NCBI GenBank assembly: GCA_019418195.1
Contig: DYCJ01000008.1
Span: 6,532-24,599, forward strand
DNA from: Clostridiales bacterium
GTDB taxonomy: Bacteria > Bacillota > Clostridia > Lachnospirales > Lachnospiraceae
Length of the DNA stretch: 18,068 bases
Direction: 5' to 3'
The notes under the pieces were generated by a model. That model worked only from the letters and a program-made list of their open reading frames with translations, was not told where the DNA came from and made no database searches. Within the stretch, counting starts at the first letter, position 1; each line of letters begins with the position of its first letter. Position numbers and translations under genes: made by a program. Shown piece by piece: positions 1 through 4,644 of this stretch.

Positions 1-1112
1 GCTTTTACTCCATCTTTCTCCCGGACGCCGTCGTCCCCCACGGTCCAGCCCGCCTCGTCGAGCAGCGCCGCCGCTCCCTCAGGATCATACTCCACCTCTG
101 AGGCTTCATTGTACCACGGGAGCTGGTCGCAGACACTGCAGGCCGGACTGCCGTATCCATTTAATACATTGTCGATCATCTCCTGCCGGTCGATGCCGAT
201 ATTGATGGCACGGCGGACCAACACATCGGAGGTAAAGTCATTTCCCACTGTGCGTCCTTCAGAATCCGTGCTCTCTTCCACAGTCGGAAGATTAAATCCT
301 CTATTGTCTACACTTGCATATGCCGCAAGCTCATATCCGTCAATCTCCTGATCCGAATAAGTGGCGGATGTATATGCCAGATCCACTTCTCCTGCCTGAG
401 CCGCAAGAAATGCCGCATCCTCTTCCATGAACAGTATCGTGACCTGTTTCATCTCCGGTGCCTCACCGTAATAATCCGGATTTGCCTCAAGGATCACCTG
501 CTGCCCCCGGTCCCACTGCTTCAGGATATACCTTCCCGAACCGATGGGATTAGAACCGTAAGTGGCGCTGTCGTAAGCGTGTTCCGGTACAATCCCTACG
601 ATCGCCATAGTATACGGCCAGATGGAGAACGGACGGGTCATATGAAAGACGGCCGTCGTCTCATCTGTGGCCTCCGCATAATCCAGCATGGTAAAATCAT
701 TGACTGAGCTGGACTCTTTTACTGTGTTGTACGTAAACGCCACATCTTCTGCGGTCAGCGGCTCCCCGTCGGTAAACTTCACATCATCGCGGATGGTTAC
801 CGTCCAGGTCAGTCCGTCTTCGCTGACTGTGTAATCTGTCGCCAGATCATACCCGATCGTCAGATCTGTGTTCGTCACTGTGAGCGTACTCTGGATCAGC
901 GGCTCATGGACGTGTTCACCAGCTCCCCAACCGTAGGCCGGATCAAATCCAGCCTCGGGCTCGGAATTGGGATCCATGGCGATCACTACAGAAGAGTCGG
1001 CGACCCGCTGCTGTACCGCCGACTGGTTTTCCAAATTGTCCCTTTGGCATCCCGCAAGAACCGATACTGACATGACAAATACAAGCAATACAGAAATCCA
1101 TCGTTTTCTCAT
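1..1112 (-). CDS. ABC transporter substrate-binding lipoprotein, family 5 (peptide/nickel type), 3' part cut off by window edge
   Basis: The first ~370 residues are visible; the C-terminus lies beyond the window. The protein opens with a lipoprotein signal: Lys/Arg at residues 3-4, a hydrophobic stretch, and the lipobox LAGC with Cys22 as the lipidated residue. The mature part matches the extracellular solute-binding family 5 (DppA/OppA/NikA type): an ATDYTVSEDGLTWTV strand, then RDDVKFTDGEPLTAEDVAFT, then a NPIGSGRYIL segment. It would capture a ligand outside the membrane and hand it to ABC permeases expected further left. The start overlaps the larC stop as ATGA, so it is translationally coupled to the lar genes, and AGAGGGG lies just upstream. 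In Lactobacillus plantarum nickel transport genes accompany lar genes, so nickel or a nickel chelate is the likely ligand. This is inference; peptide binding is the alternative. A HVH motif lies near residue 69. Confidence 0.88.
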   Translation of the reverse strand, partial: MRKRWISVLLVFVMSVSVLAGCQRDNLENQSAVQQRVADSSVVIAMDPNSEPEAGFDPAYGWGAGEHVHEPLIQSTLTVTNTDLTIGYDLATDYTVSEDGLTWTVTIRDDVKFTDGEPLTAEDVAFTYNTVKESSSVNDFTMLDYAEATDETTAVFHMTRPFSIWPYTMAIVGIVPEHAYDSATYGSNPIGSGRYILKQWDRGQQVILEANPDYYGEAPEMKQVTILFMEEDAAFLAAQAGEVDLAYTSATYSDQEIDGYELAAYASVDNRGFNLPTVEESTDSEGRTVGNDFTSDVLVRRAINIGIDRQEMIDNVLNGYGSPACSVCDQLPWYNEASEVEYDPEGAAALLDEAGWTVGDDGVREKDGVK

Positions 1113-2449
1113 CTCTGCGCCCCTCTCTGATCCGCCCCTTTGTCCTGCCCATTTTCGTCCTGCTCTTTCCTGGCCTGCTCATTTCTCAGGGAAATGATAT
1201 GTTCATACGCTTCCCTGTAAGACATCTGTGCCTTTTTCGCATAGGCAGCCGTATCCTCATATTCCGGCTTCTCATGCCTGATCCCGAAGCCTTCCGCTGT
1301 CTTGATCCGCACCTGCCCGCACTCTGTCTGTACCATTTCAATACCGGGTGTAAGGAAATATTTCTCACAGAGACGCACTCTCACTCCGTTGGTCGTTGTC
1401 TCTCTCATGATATTTTTTGCCGTCTCATCGATCCGCTCTGTCTCACAGAGCACTGTGAGCTCCCATCCCGGACGGCCCTTCTTCATGGTCCCTGCCACCG
1501 TATACGCATCCAAAGCACCAAGCTCTATCAGTCTTGCTGTGGCAAATGCAAGGGTTTCCGGCGTCATATCATCAATATTGCACACCAGCTCAGCAATACG
1601 TCCGTTTCCCGCGGCTGCGTCTTGGAACTGCTCCTCTGCGGTTTCTCCTATGGTTTCAGTTGCATTCGTCTCTTTCATCGGCTGTGCTTCGCCCAGGAAC
1701 ACTCTCACACAGTTTGCCTGTTCAAATTCCTTCGTTCCCACACCGATGCCCACACTCGTTTTCGACATGACCGGCATATCACCGAAGCTGTCCGCAAAGT
1801 GTACAAGCAGTGCAGCACCTGTAGGTGTACACAGTTCTCCGCGGATATTTCCGCCGTACATCGGCACATCCGCCAGCAGGTTGGCCGTGGCAGGCGCCGG
1901 CACCGGCATGATCCCGTGAGCACAGCGCACAGTTCCGCTGCCCACATGAACAGGAGATGCCACGATGCGCTCTGGCCTCAGCAGATATATGGCATAGCAC
2001 ACTCCTGTAACGTCGGCCACTGCATCCAGCGCGCCTACCTCATGGAAATGTACCTGTTCCACCGGGCAGCCGTGGGCTTTTGCCTCGGCGTCCGCGATCG
2101 CATCGTAGACCTTTCCTGCATTGTCGCGCACCTCCTCCGGCAAATCCAGCCCGCCGATCAGCTCCGCAATATGCAGGGGATCCGCATGGTGATGATGTCC
2201 CGCATGCAGTTCGGCATGCTCTCCTCCCGGTTCATGTTCTTCCTCCCCGTACACAGTCACTTCCATATGCGTGCCGGATATGCCGCATGTGCTGCTCTTA
2301 CGGGGTGTGATCCTGACACCGGGCAGTCCCAGTCCGTTCATACGTTTCAGAAACTCTTCTTTCTGCTCCTCATCCATCAGTTCATACAGAGCGGACATGA
2401 GCATATCGCCGGCCGCTCCCATATTGCACTCTATATAAAGTGTTCTCAT
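1109..2449 (-). CDS. larC: LarC, nickel insertion protein (pyridinium-3,5-bisthiocarboxylate mononucleotide nickel chelatase)
   Basis: LarC inserts nickel into the pincer nucleotide in a CTP-dependent reaction, the last step of NPN cofactor synthesis in the cytoplasm. At 446 residues it is full length. Recognisable blocks are the N-terminal YIECNMGAAGDM, a histidine-rich stretch around residues 75-95 (EHEPGGEHAELHAGHHHH) suited to holding nickel, VHFHEVGALDAVADVTG, and the C-terminal-domain start CNIDDMTPETLAFAT. In L. plantarum the gene is split as larC1/larC2 and joined by a programmed frameshift; here both domains lie in a single open frame. It starts 3 bases after the larB stop, and its AAAGGAGA ribosome binding site is inside the end of larB. 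Its own stop overlaps the next gene by 4 bases. The C-terminal tail is short, charged and Gln/Asp rich. Confidence 0.95.
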   Translation of the reverse strand: MRTLYIECNMGAAGDMLMSALYELMDEEQKEEFLKRMNGLGLPGVRITPRKSSTCGISGTHMEVTVYGEEEHEPGGEHAELHAGHHHHADPLHIAELIGGLDLPEEVRDNAGKVYDAIADAEAKAHGCPVEQVHFHEVGALDAVADVTGVCYAIYLLRPERIVASPVHVGSGTVRCAHGIMPVPAPATANLLADVPMYGGNIRGELCTPTGAALLVHFADSFGDMPVMSKTSVGIGVGTKEFEQANCVRVFLGEAQPMKETNATETIGETAEEQFQDAAAGNGRIAELVCNIDDMTPETLAFATARLIELGALDAYTVAGTMKKGRPGWELTVLCETERIDETAKNIMRETTTNGVRVRLCEKYFLTPGIEMVQTECGQVRIKTAEGFGIRHEKPEYEDTAAYAKKAQMSYREAYEHIISLRNEQARKEQDENGQDKGADQRGAQR

Positions 2450-2452
2450 ATC

Positions 2453-3217
2453 CTAATTCTCCTTTATCCCTTCCATCTGATTGATCATACTTGCCAGATA
2501 TCCCGCTCCGAATCCATTGTCTATATTGACAACGCTGCACCCGGACGCGCAGGAGTTGAGCATGGACAGAAGAGCCGACACCCCTCCGAAGCTTGCGCCG
2601 TATCCCACGCTTGTAGGCACCGCGATCACCGGACAGTCCGTCAGGCCGCCGATCACCGATGCCAGCGCGCCTTCCATCCCCGCCACTGCCACAACACACC
2701 GGGCGCTCATGAGCGGATCCAGATTCGAGAGCAGGCGGTGGAGCCCTGCCACCCCTACATCGTAGAGACGGGTGACTTTATTTCCCATGGTCTCCGCAGT
2801 CAGTGCAGCCTCTTCCGCAACCGGTATGTCGCTTGTGCCCCCGGTAGCCACTACAATACTGCCCCGGTGTTCCTGTTCCTCCGGATAGGCGACGGCAAGC
2901 TTCGGAAGAGGATAATACTCCGCCGGGACTGCCCCGCACAAAATGTCTGCCGCCTCCTGCCCGACCCGCGTGACAAGGATGTTCCTGCATCCCCTATTTC
3001 CCATAGCGGTGACGATCCCTTTAATTTGTTCCGGCGTCTTTCCGGCGCCATAGATTACTTCGGACGCGCCCTGCCGGATGCTCCGGTGATGATCGATCTT
3101 GGCATAATCCAGATCCTCAAAAGGTTCCTCTTTTAAATTCAGAAGTGCATCTTCCGGTGAAGTCGTACCGTCTGCCACACTCCGCAGTAATTGAAGAATA
3201 TCGTGTTTATTATCCAT
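2453..3217 (-). CDS. larB: LarB, nicotinic acid adenine dinucleotide carboxylase/hydrolase
   Basis: LarB carboxylates the pyridine ring of nicotinic acid adenine dinucleotide and cleaves the phosphoanhydride, giving the precursor that LarE then thiolates. The 254-residue length is typical. The C-terminal half resembles PurE (AIR carboxylase). The signature blocks are VATGGTSDIPVAEEA, DVGVAGLHRLL, VAGMEGALASVIGGL, VPTSVGYGASFGGVSALL and NIDNGFGAGYLA. The start ATG is preceded by AAGGAG 9 bases away. The same nine bases (AGATAAGGA) occur again 11 bases further upstream as a local duplication. The gene lies 35 bases after the larE stop and 3 bases before larC, so the three form one operon. Confidence 0.95.
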   Translation of the reverse strand: MDNKHDILQLLRSVADGTTSPEDALLNLKEEPFEDLDYAKIDHHRSIRQGASEVIYGAGKTPEQIKGIVTAMGNRGCRNILVTRVGQEAADILCGAVPAEYYPLPKLAVAYPEEQEHRGSIVVATGGTSDIPVAEEAALTAETMGNKVTRLYDVGVAGLHRLLSNLDPLMSARCVVAVAGMEGALASVIGGLTDCPVIAVPTSVGYGASFGGVSALLSMLNSCASGCSVVNIDNGFGAGYLASMINQMEGIKEN

Positions 3218-3252: not shown

Positions 3253-4008
3253 CTAATCCGACGGGTTCCTTTCCTCCAGATCGAGGAGTACCACTGAAAA
3301 AAGCCGTCCCAGTTTTTCATAGATCTGTTTTCTCTTCTCCATCACAAACTGCATCTGGTCTCCCGTAACCTGAATCCGTGCCACGCCCCCGTACAGACGC
3401 ACACGAAAATCCCGAAATCCCAATGCAGACATCGCGTTTTCCGCCTGTTCCACCCGGTCGAGATCCGCCGCTGTAATTGGGGTTCCCGCAGGAATGCGCG
3501 TTGCCAGACAGGCATATGCGGGTTTATCCCATGTAAAAAGACCTGCTTCTTTCGATTGTTCTCTCACCTGCTCTTTCGTGATGCCACATTCCCGGAGAGG
3601 CGAGCGGACTTCCAGTTCTCTCAGTGCCCTCATGCCCGGACGGTCTCCCGCATCATCCGAAGCATTCGTTCCATCCAGAAGTACAGAATAACCATCGTCC
3701 TTTGCCGCTTCCCGCAGGCGTGTAAAAATCGCACGTTTACAGTAATAGCACCGCTCCGGTCCATTTTTCTCTGCCTCAGGAAGAGAAAGGATGTCCATGT
3801 CCACTACGGTCATAGGAATATCCAGTTCTTCTGCCAGATGCCGTGCGTCTTCAAGTTCGAAAGCAGGCTGAAAAGCAGTCTTTACATAATAGGCATGCAC
3901 ATCACAGCCGTATTCTTTTGCCGCCCAGAGTACAAACGCCGAGTCTGTCCCTCCGGAAAATGCCGCCGCCGCTTTTGGCACCTGTTCAAAAAATTCTTTT
4001 AATGTCAT
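3253..4008 (-). CDS. larE: LarE, ATP-dependent sulfur insertase of NPN cofactor synthesis
   Basis: LarE adenylates the carboxylated nucleotide and inserts sulfur, acting twice per cofactor. The PP-loop SGGTDSA is at residues 18-24 and DGTNASDD at 112-119. Cys87 and Cys90 form a CxxC (ERCYYCKRA) and Cys167 sits in PAYACLATRIPAGTPI. Three such cysteines are the pattern described for LarE enzymes that carry a [4Fe-4S] cluster (Thermotoga maritima type), as opposed to the single sacrificial cysteine of L. plantarum LarE. I chose the ATG at 4008 (251 residues) because GAGGGTGAAG lies just upstream. The upstream in-frame ATG at 4086 would translate straight through an intrinsic terminator hairpin. 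The C-terminal ~70 residues form the usual FRDFRVRLYGGVARIQV region. Confidence 0.93.
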   Translation of the reverse strand: MTLKEFFEQVPKAAAAFSGGTDSAFVLWAAKEYGCDVHAYYVKTAFQPAFELEDARHLAEELDIPMTVVDMDILSLPEAEKNGPERCYYCKRAIFTRLREAAKDDGYSVLLDGTNASDDAGDRPGMRALRELEVRSPLRECGITKEQVREQSKEAGLFTWDKPAYACLATRIPAGTPITAADLDRVEQAENAMSALGFRDFRVRLYGGVARIQVTGDQMQFVMEKRKQIYEKLGRLFSVVLLDLEERNPSD

Positions 4009-4027
4009 ATCTTCACCCTCGTTCTTC

Positions 4028-4075
4028 AAAAACAAAAGGAAAGTACCCGCCTTCTTCCGAAAGCAGATACCTTCC
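4028..4075 (-). terminator. Strong intrinsic terminator in the larE leader, possible attenuator
   Basis: Read on the minus strand, arm 4075-4059 pairs with arm 4054-4038 in an unbroken 17-pair stem (four G-U pairs) closed by a GGAA tetraloop. A TTTTGTTTTT tract follows at 4037-4028. Only 19 bases separate the T tract from the larE start codon, which leaves no room for a separate promoter downstream. The lar transcript must therefore cross this hairpin. It could be the terminator of the DUF3842 operon with partial read-through, or a regulated attenuator. Confidence 0.85.
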
Positions 4076-4083
4076 TGATATCT
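4065..4083 (-). promoter_or_regulatory. Candidate antiterminator hairpin in the larE leader
   Basis: On the minus strand AGATATC (4083-4077) can pair with GGTATCT (4071-4065) over seven pairs with one G-U, around an AGGAA loop. The second arm is part of the 5' arm of the terminator, so the two structures exclude each other. A further GATAT at 4105-4101 could pair with 4081-4077 and release the terminator. The rest of the 4207-4084 leader has a GCGGC/GCCGC hairpin at 4157-4170 and no known riboswitch that I recognise. The pairing is directly visible; a regulatory role is inference. Confidence 0.45.
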
Positions 4084-4206
4084 CATACATACATAAATAA
4101 ATATCTGATGACATAAAACGTCTGCACAAACACTAATACTCCTCAGCCCGATCGCAGCGGCTTCTGCCGCATCCGCCGACTTCCTGCCGTTACGGTCTTC
4201 GTTGAT

Positions 4207-4623
4207 CTATCTGATCTCCTGAGTAAAACGCGCCAGTGCTTCTATTGCATTTTGTACATTTTTTCCCATGGATGCGTCAGAGACGCCCACGACAATATTA
4301 TCACAGAGATTCACCGGAATCAAGATTCTCTTTGCACTGCTCTGTCCCACCGCCACAGCCATACGCGGAGTGATCTCTCCCAGCATAGAGTCCGCGATCA
4401 CGATTCCCACCGGTCCCATGATCACATCAGCCCGGACTGAAGCAACAACCACGGAATTCTCCCCGGTGGCAGCCTGATCCGCCCCCGCCTTAAGCATAGC
4501 GTTTGTAGCCGCACTGTTCGTTCCCACAGCCAGCACCTCAATATCCGGATTGTACTCCTTTACAGCGCTCACAAGCTGGCGCCCCAGGCCTCCGCCCTGT
4601 CCGTCAATGACCAAGACCTTCAT
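4207..4623 (-). CDS. DUF3842 family protein
   Basis: A 138-residue cytoplasmic protein of the DUF3842 family, common in Clostridia and of unknown biochemical role. It begins MKVLVIDGQGGGLGRQLV, a beta strand plus glycine-rich loop that resembles a nucleotide-binding fold. Conserved-looking blocks are VGTNSAATNAMLKAGAD, ADVIMGPVGIVIADSMLGEITP and ILIPVNLCDNIVVGV. I chose the ATG at 4623, since GGGAG lies 8 bases upstream; an in-frame ATG at 4638 adds five residues and has a weaker site. It follows the DUF951 gene by 21 bases and is the last gene before the larE leader terminator. The lar operon may be reached by read-through from it. Confidence 0.85.
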   Translation of the reverse strand: MKVLVIDGQGGGLGRQLVSAVKEYNPDIEVLAVGTNSAATNAMLKAGADQAATGENSVVVASVRADVIMGPVGIVIADSMLGEITPRMAVAVGQSSAKRILIPVNLCDNIVVGVSDASMGKNVQNAIEALARFTQEIR

Positions 4624-4644
4624 CGCATCATCTCCCATGTCCTT

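Follow-up and report, generated by a model that had tools for sequence, protein, structure and literature searches.

A conserved terminator/antiterminator switch with three GAA-loop hairpins precedes larE and co-occurs with the DUF3842 family

The window analysed here (the whole stretch of 18,068 nucleotides) carries on its minus strand, in this order, a LUD-domain gene, a sortase gene, genes for DUF951 and DUF3842 proteins, a leader region, larE, larB, larC and a gene for a nikA-like binding protein; the closest match of larE is 93% identical, and the locus is Mediterraneibacter-like. The DUF3842 protein (PF12953; positions 4207..4638), Rossmann-like by prediction, is the candidate trans-acting partner discussed below. 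The genes on the other side of the leader, likewise on the minus strand, are larE (3253..4008), the first gene behind the switch, larB (PF00731, AIRC-like; 2453..3217), larC (PF01969, nickel insertion; 1109..2449) and, cut by the edge of the window, the gene for a family-5 solute-binding protein (SBP5; 3..1112), for which the best NCBIfam match is nickel_nikA, with a score under the cut-off of that model. At three other loci (L140, L143 and L145), the nikA-like gene is followed by four conserved genes which, from their order, we take to encode ABC permeases and ATPases.

Read in the direction of transcription, the leader consists of hairpin H1 (4177..4189, CGGC-AGGAA-GUCG, with a pentaloop of the ANGAA class; represented in models R1 and R2) and hairpin H2 (4157..4170, GCGGC-AGAA-GCCGC, with a tetraloop of the NGAA class), both showing compensatory changes across leaders, a linker (4084..4156) that measures 22 to 214 nt across 28 leaders, hairpin H3 (4065..4083, AGATATC-AGGAA-GGTATCT, seven pairs), which is the antiterminator, an intrinsic terminator (4037..4076), the 5' arm of which includes the loop and the 3' arm of H3, and the T tract TTTGTTTTT (4028..4036), all on the minus strand, with the ATG of larE at 4008, 19 bases beyond the T tract. 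The original prediction had placed a 17-pair terminator with a T tract at this distance from larE, along with a seven-pair hairpin at 4065-4083 that competes for the 5' arm of the terminator; both are present, although the terminator has 18 pairs, and H1 and H2 had been overlooked. Terminator-like sites number 22 in the list for the window, against 13.3 expected from shuffles, and the larE terminator has the most pairs of them all; the 198-nt leader folds with z = -4.1, with none of 200 shuffles equally stable. The larE reading frame is open upstream through the terminator, as far as an ATG at 4086 (3253-4086); this extension is probably incidental because the matches of relatives start at the residue corresponding to 4008. 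Seven related leaders (L002-L008) contain an additional stretch of about 100-200 nt between the terminator and larE, directly after the terminator, that is absent from the window and from L001; in several cases, it is GC-rich, with repeated hairpin-like pieces.

The larE leaders of relatives share this arrangement of an H1 pentaloop, an H2 tetraloop, a variable linker and an H3 pentaloop overlapping the terminator. We tabulated H3 and the terminator with hand-set anchors in 31 of 35 leaders, omitting the near copies L004 and L006 as well as L167 and L168, which have no terminator; a MAFFT alignment of this region misplaced L010 and was discarded. Base changes in the 3' arm of H3 carry through to the H3 partner and the terminator partner alike, such that the triplet at position 2 (terminator and H3 partners) is A-U-A in 17 leaders and G-C-G in 9, and that at position 5 is G-C-G in 17 and U-A-U in 2; this joint covariation among relatives bears out the competition originally predicted. 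An uninterrupted H3 stem of at least four pairs is present in 28 of the 31 leaders (the exceptions are L009, L019 and L152), and the terminator in all 31, at -17 to -31.5 kcal/mol; the energies in the window are -5.1 kcal/mol for H3 versus -25.5 kcal/mol for the terminator. A strict scan for the switch over 80 larE loci (624,488 bases, both strands) yielded 15 matches, all on the lar strand, 14 of them no more than 240 nt from larE and the remaining one (L020) in front of a gene, presumably fmdE-like, that is followed by larE; the same scan gave no matches in one round of dinucleotide shuffles of these loci or in 168,543 bases of background loci. The scan and the table show that a mutually exclusive antiterminator and terminator have been kept in evolution, as in an attenuator, and the larE leader is, judging by this comparison of sequences, almost certainly a conserved terminator/antiterminator switch.

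The third segment originally proposed, GATAT at 4101-4105, is present in the linker, but its pairing with the 5' arm of H3 is due to chance given that linker complements are no more common than in shuffles: 4 of 28 linkers (from leaders included among the 35 tabulated for loops) contain a five-nucleotide complement of this arm, against 4.0 expected in mononucleotide shuffles. The 1:2 segment was rejected on this count. What stands of the predicted 1:2/2:3/3:4 attenuator is the terminator/antiterminator pair, conserved with compensatory changes; the 1:2 segment, and the four-segment design with it, does not. The element instead has three hairpins that resemble one another, and it is the last one that competes with the terminator. 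That no known riboswitch class had been recognised in the leader also agrees with our searches: Rfam release 15 produces no match at the gathering score on the window, one match on the leader region at E<=5, far under gathering, and two matches on 19 other loci at E<=1, both far under gathering. A known Rfam class was rejected as no family reaches its gathering score in any of these searches, and the larE leader is, as far as sequence comparison goes, a transcription attenuator of a class outside Rfam.

H1 and H2 were assessed in a MAFFT alignment of 24 leaders, namely 14 chosen for visible hairpins (A2, from which the misaligned L019 was omitted) and 10 more chosen as R1 matches (A3). The paired cells amount to 86.3% versus 71.6% in shuffles, a share that is inflated because the leaders were selected by their hairpins or by an R1 match; 8 of 12 pairs show two-sided changes, and the covariation score is 0.373 versus 0.116 in shuffles, a value that none of 500 shuffles reached. 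Slid registers pair in 19-52% of the cells, compensatory changes are likewise seen in the alignment of the 14 lar leaders, and the kinds of base change do not follow from the selection of the leaders. The loops are mostly C-ANGAA-G or C-NGAA-G across 35 leaders, including ACGAA, AUGAA and AAGAA, and variant leaders have CAA-type or AAAA loops (by eye). The hairpins vary in order and number: the tetraloop precedes the pentaloop in L161, and L112 has one additional hairpin upstream (by eye). Within the 47 columns aligned around H1-H2, outside of which the linker lies, conservation is limited to stems and loops. Such modular GAA-loop hairpins look like repeated protein-binding sites rather than one folded aptamer, and it appears probable, from the sequences, that they are bound by a protein.

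The covariance model R1, which describes H1-H2 and was built from 14 lar leaders, has 16 matches among the 80 larE leaders with E values up to 0.0024, followed by a background match at 0.023; 13 of these 16 are training sequences and two (L004 and L006) are near copies, leaving L019 as the independent one. The lar leader is the top-ranking R1 match in 8 of 8 genomes, with L019, outside the training set, among them. Because 62 of the 80 larE loci have neither the strict switch nor an R1 match, the element belongs to a subset of the larE family.

Whole-genome searches with R1, blind to genes, identified more lar operons and other targets. The first round gave 45 matches, of which 30 were examined as loci and 15 left out; those in G001, G043 and G073 and, later, L113 in G223 were accepted, and the other 26 were judged by eye to be background (L114 in contig orientation only). 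The second round gave 33 matches, 20 of them examined (10 accepted and 10 assigned to background, L164 without inspection) and 13 left out; in the third, 6 of 7 matches were accepted. Comparison of these loci reveals several kinds of target. The element precedes genes for ECF-type S components (ECF-S) in six genomes found by RNA models (L151, L152, L153, L157, L167 and L168), all without larC, and the three ECF-S proteins scanned belong to PF12822; it further precedes genes for family-5 binding proteins at L159 and L171. The gene at L113 encodes a nickel pincer cofactor-dependent isomerase, group 22 (NCBIfam, 538 bits against a cut-off of 400); the element, matched at E 1.1e-5 in that genome with 299 genomes searched, probably lies before this nickel-pincer-nucleotide (NPN) isomerase in a leader without an evident terminator (G223 is outside the 66-genome tables used below). 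In G937, G013 and G322, transporter genes behind the switch are found on one contig with lar genes and precede them, so that transporters can head lar operons. Five ECF-S leaders (L264-L266, L268 and L270) have no evident terminator and contain a CUCC stretch able to pair with the ribosome site (by eye); these are perhaps a translational form of the switch. At L017, from a Spirochaetales MAG, a DUF3842 gene is followed by H1/H2-like hairpins, an ABC transporter that we take to be a metal-type, FecB-type system, an fmdE-like gene and larE-larB-larC. G007 has another, more distant ECF-S gene (L275), and GAA-loop hairpins as well as a terminator are visible in the leader of this gene (by eye).

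A close ECF-S homolog (E < 1e-40, a threshold set after inspecting the matches) is encoded in 1 of 40 genomes with larC versus 12 of 26 without (p 2e-5), larC being the only synthesis gene used and some of the genomes possibly incomplete; the larC-containing G008 has a truncated ECF-S match (56% identical, E 3e-30), inclusion of which gives 2 of 40. Among the larC-less genomes, a gene of the Lar_N family (PF09861) above the Pfam cut-off is found in 8 of 12 with a close ECF-S versus 2 of 14 without (two-sided p 0.014), and at E < 1e-20 in 5 of 12 versus 0 of 14 (p 0.012). All seven of the eight carriers that were scanned with NCBIfam (G892 was left out) score above an NPN-enzyme cut-off, as a putative hexonate epimerase in G833, G311 and G314 and as lactate racemase in G429, G673, G894 and G884; G316 and G889, which have neither larC nor a close ECF-S, also have a true NPN-isomerase match, and G316 has a more distant ECF-S. 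In G894 and G892, a common gene cluster includes a LarA gene at a distance of about 5-7 kb from the ECF-S and DUF3842 genes. Between DUF3842 and ECF-S, L183, L196 and L204 encode a protein (about 350 aa in L204) of which the C-terminal half is kinase-like and is matched by PRK/uridine-kinase models of NCBIfam and Pfam under their cut-offs; a kinase-like protein follows ECF-S in L151. Taken together, the near-exclusion between ECF-S and larC, the NPN enzymes in larC-less genomes and the kinase-like partner suggest that the ECF-S of larC-less genomes takes up NPN, possibly as a nucleoside that is re-phosphorylated. Counting against uptake, no Lar_N gene is found in 4 of the 12 larC-less genomes with a close ECF-S (G364, G307, G890 and G895), nor in G374 and G397, two further larC-less ECF-S genomes with the element. 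Lar_N is also absent from 10 of 19 genomes that have both the element and larC, namely G001, G002, G003, G005, G006, G008, G424, G908, G930 and G937, which appear to make NPN while lacking any known NPN enzyme. Makers that lack LarA have, however, been described: according to PMC11796402, larB, larE and larC occur without larA in about 15% of genomes, for which other NPN-binding proteins are inferred.

In the window, the DUF3842 gene immediately precedes the leader; at other loci, DUF3842 genes are found in the vicinity of lar, SBP5 (L171) and ECF-S (L152) elements. Comparison of 66 genomes shows that DUF3842 is encoded in 24 of 26 with the element versus 9 of 40 without (Fisher p 2.5e-8), the latter comprising the first genomes in listing order that gave no match, with filters under which weak matches are lost; excluding G001-G008, which were reached through larE similarity, a route that favours DUF3842 neighbours, the counts are 16 of 18 versus 9 of 40 (p 4.8e-6). 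The two lie on different contigs in 13 of the 24 cases, and the association is seen within three families (p 0.015, 0.011 and 0.013). It also persists both within genomes that have larC (17 of 19 with the element versus 5 of 21 without, p 3.4e-5) and within those that lack it (7 of 7 versus 4 of 19, p 5e-4; G073, in which the contig ends just past the leader, is counted as larC-less), so that DUF3842 as a mere marker of lar genes was rejected. The co-occurrence could reflect descent. Exceptions exist in both directions: the element was found without DUF3842 in G424 and G478 as well as, by the switch scan, in G322, and DUF3842 and larC without the element in G312 and G321. Inspection of the element-less genomes by eye revealed variants in G011, G013, G884, G892, G893 and G894 and the switch in G322, and with such inspection included, a lar element is present in 20 of 22 genomes with DUF3842 versus 3 of 17 without (G009, without DUF3842, is left out, and G014 is represented by 1,265 bases only). 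The model-only counts are the fair ones because inspection by eye is kinder to the genomes with DUF3842; in some genomes, larC alone was recognised, and the operon start may fall outside the sequence inspected. Close ECF-S genes have a GAA- or CAA-loop hairpin within 170 nt in 8 of 9 genomes with DUF3842 (two or more hairpins in seven; the ninth, G311, has none within this distance) and in 0 of 4 without it, with 1.5 kb upstream searched; excluding the four ECF-S genomes found by RNA models, the counts are 4 of 5 versus 0 of 4 (p 0.048).

DUF3842 is predicted to adopt a Rossmann-like fold (mean pLDDT 83) and, across 14 sequences, has a QGGGxG loop and one invariant cysteine. The best PDB matches in a fold search are generic nucleotide-binding or enzyme folds; nothing among the best 50 points toward RNA binding except one RNA methyltransferase at rank 47. 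The predicted fold would go well with NPN, the synthesis of which starts from nicotinic acid adenine dinucleotide according to PMC11770544. Given the co-occurrence in sequenced genomes, DUF3842 may well be the protein that binds the hairpins.

We favour a model in which the RNA begins near H1, or reads through from the DUF3842 gene, and H1 and H2 fold. By default, the strong terminator would form and transcription would end before larE; as H3 is much weaker than the terminator in the window, transcription should stop unaided. A trans-acting protein that binds GAA-loop hairpins (C-ANGAA-G or C-NGAA-G), and that is perhaps loaded onto H1 and H2, would hold H3 and block the terminator, and larE-larB-larC and the nickel-type importer would then be made. 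We infer the default-off direction, the binding by DUF3842 and the signal as parts of this model, with NPN shortage as the favoured signal and the direction of the response a guess. NPN appears to match the target genes better than nickel alone or lactate, which had been suggested as candidate signals, and from the identity of the targets it is a plausible signal of the switch, about which we are evenly divided. As a whole, a default-off attenuator, the hairpins of which would be bound by a protein, probably DUF3842, and which would report NPN status, is a reading that we hold with middling confidence. More tentatively, DUF3842 could be the NPN-sensing, RNA-binding founder of a new family acting on a three-hairpin RNA, with ECF-S importing NPN or its nucleoside for non-makers; this extended reading takes in the kinase-like partner in some genomes and the position of the RNA, which lies ahead of genes for NPN synthesis, for an NPN enzyme and for an importer.

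Alternatively, the switch could report nickel, not NPN, and turn on nickel uptake along with the lar genes. The nikA-like SBP5 genes in lar operons fit this possibility, as do the presumed FecB-type system at L017 and, in the lar operon at L299, a gene that we take to be NikM/CbiM-like; however, none of the six ECF-S genomes identified with the RNA models has larC, and the isomerase encoded at L113 uses NPN and is no importer, which makes nickel a rather unlikely signal. About as doubtful is a true riboswitch, in which NPN or a precursor would bind the H1-H2-H3 RNA directly and DUF3842 would be merely another NPN-related protein. A new riboswitch is possible and accords with the leader position, the terminator switch, the cofactor-related targets and the compact conserved core of 43 positions, but it is not our preferred reading because the hairpins are modular and co-occur with a protein family: conservation around H1-H2 is confined to stems and loops, the order and number of hairpins vary, a single loop type occurs three times, and where DUF3842 is missing, the lar and ECF-S leaders are mostly without the element.

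It is still less probable that the switch is operated by a known hairpin-binding protein, an ANTAR antiterminator or CsrA. The ANTAR dual-hairpin system (EutV/eut), as described in PMC8934654, follows the same logic, with small look-alike hairpins, the last of which overlaps the 5' arm of the terminator, so that protein binding prevents termination; its targets, however, are hexaloops with A1 and G4, whereas the loops here are mostly of five and four nucleotides (ANGAA and NGAA); the overlap of the last hairpin with the terminator is a feature in common. The larE element further differs in its three hairpins, its long variable linker and its co-occurrence with DUF3842. ANTAR proteins are encoded in 22 of the 26 genomes with the element, the set in which they were counted, with a single one found in G002 (M. 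catenae), and were not found in G007, G429, G673 and G833; ANTAR is a weakened candidate for the binder. CsrA/CsrB-RsmZ (RF00018) is another system of repeated hairpins with purine loops, and several loops here are AGGAA; L170 also has a weak CsrB match (24.4 bits against a gathering score of 71). Nevertheless, CsrA was found in just 7 of the 26 element-carrying genomes and not in the other 19, and loops such as ACGAA, AUGAA and AAGAA have no GGA, which a CsrA target requires together with CsrA in the host; CsrA was rejected as the binder. LicT/BglG antitermination likewise involves a protein-stabilised hairpin overlapping a terminator, as proposed here, but the protein there recognises one hairpin only, by way of its internal loops; no regulator gene of this or any other kind was recognised beside the lar operon in eight regions, going by homology among these regions and, for proteins not shared between them, by the first 60 residues. 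The NiCo (czcD) riboswitch, a nickel-related leader RNA, presumably differs in architecture, and no Rfam family scores at or above gathering in the window. Finally, the direct succession of DUF3842 and the terminator in the window might suggest an ordinary operon terminator next to which the hairpin is incidental; this is hardly credible, given that the switch recurs without DUF3842 directly upstream, with promoter-like hexamers directly before H1 in L010, L011, L019 and L151-L153 (by eye), and that H3 is maintained by compensatory change.

No paper on RNA control of NPN cofactor (lar) genes or on NPN uptake or salvage was found in the open literature searched, a scope that leaves subscription and bioRxiv-only work mostly outside, and the word DUF3842 occurs in no open PMC paper. 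The analysis yields an RNA that lends itself to testing, proposes a member of a family of unknown function as its regulator and points to a possible way for NPN to enter the cell; DUF3842 would be a concrete candidate for the other NPN-binding proteins inferred in PMC11796402, and ECF-S import, if true, would let bacteria unable to make NPN use the cofactor. At two distant larE loci (L050 and L051), a GACC-ACGAA-GGUC hairpin about 110-60 nt before larE shares an arm with a terminator, and this terminator has a UGAA hairpin inside it; this arrangement is possibly a compact form of the switch.
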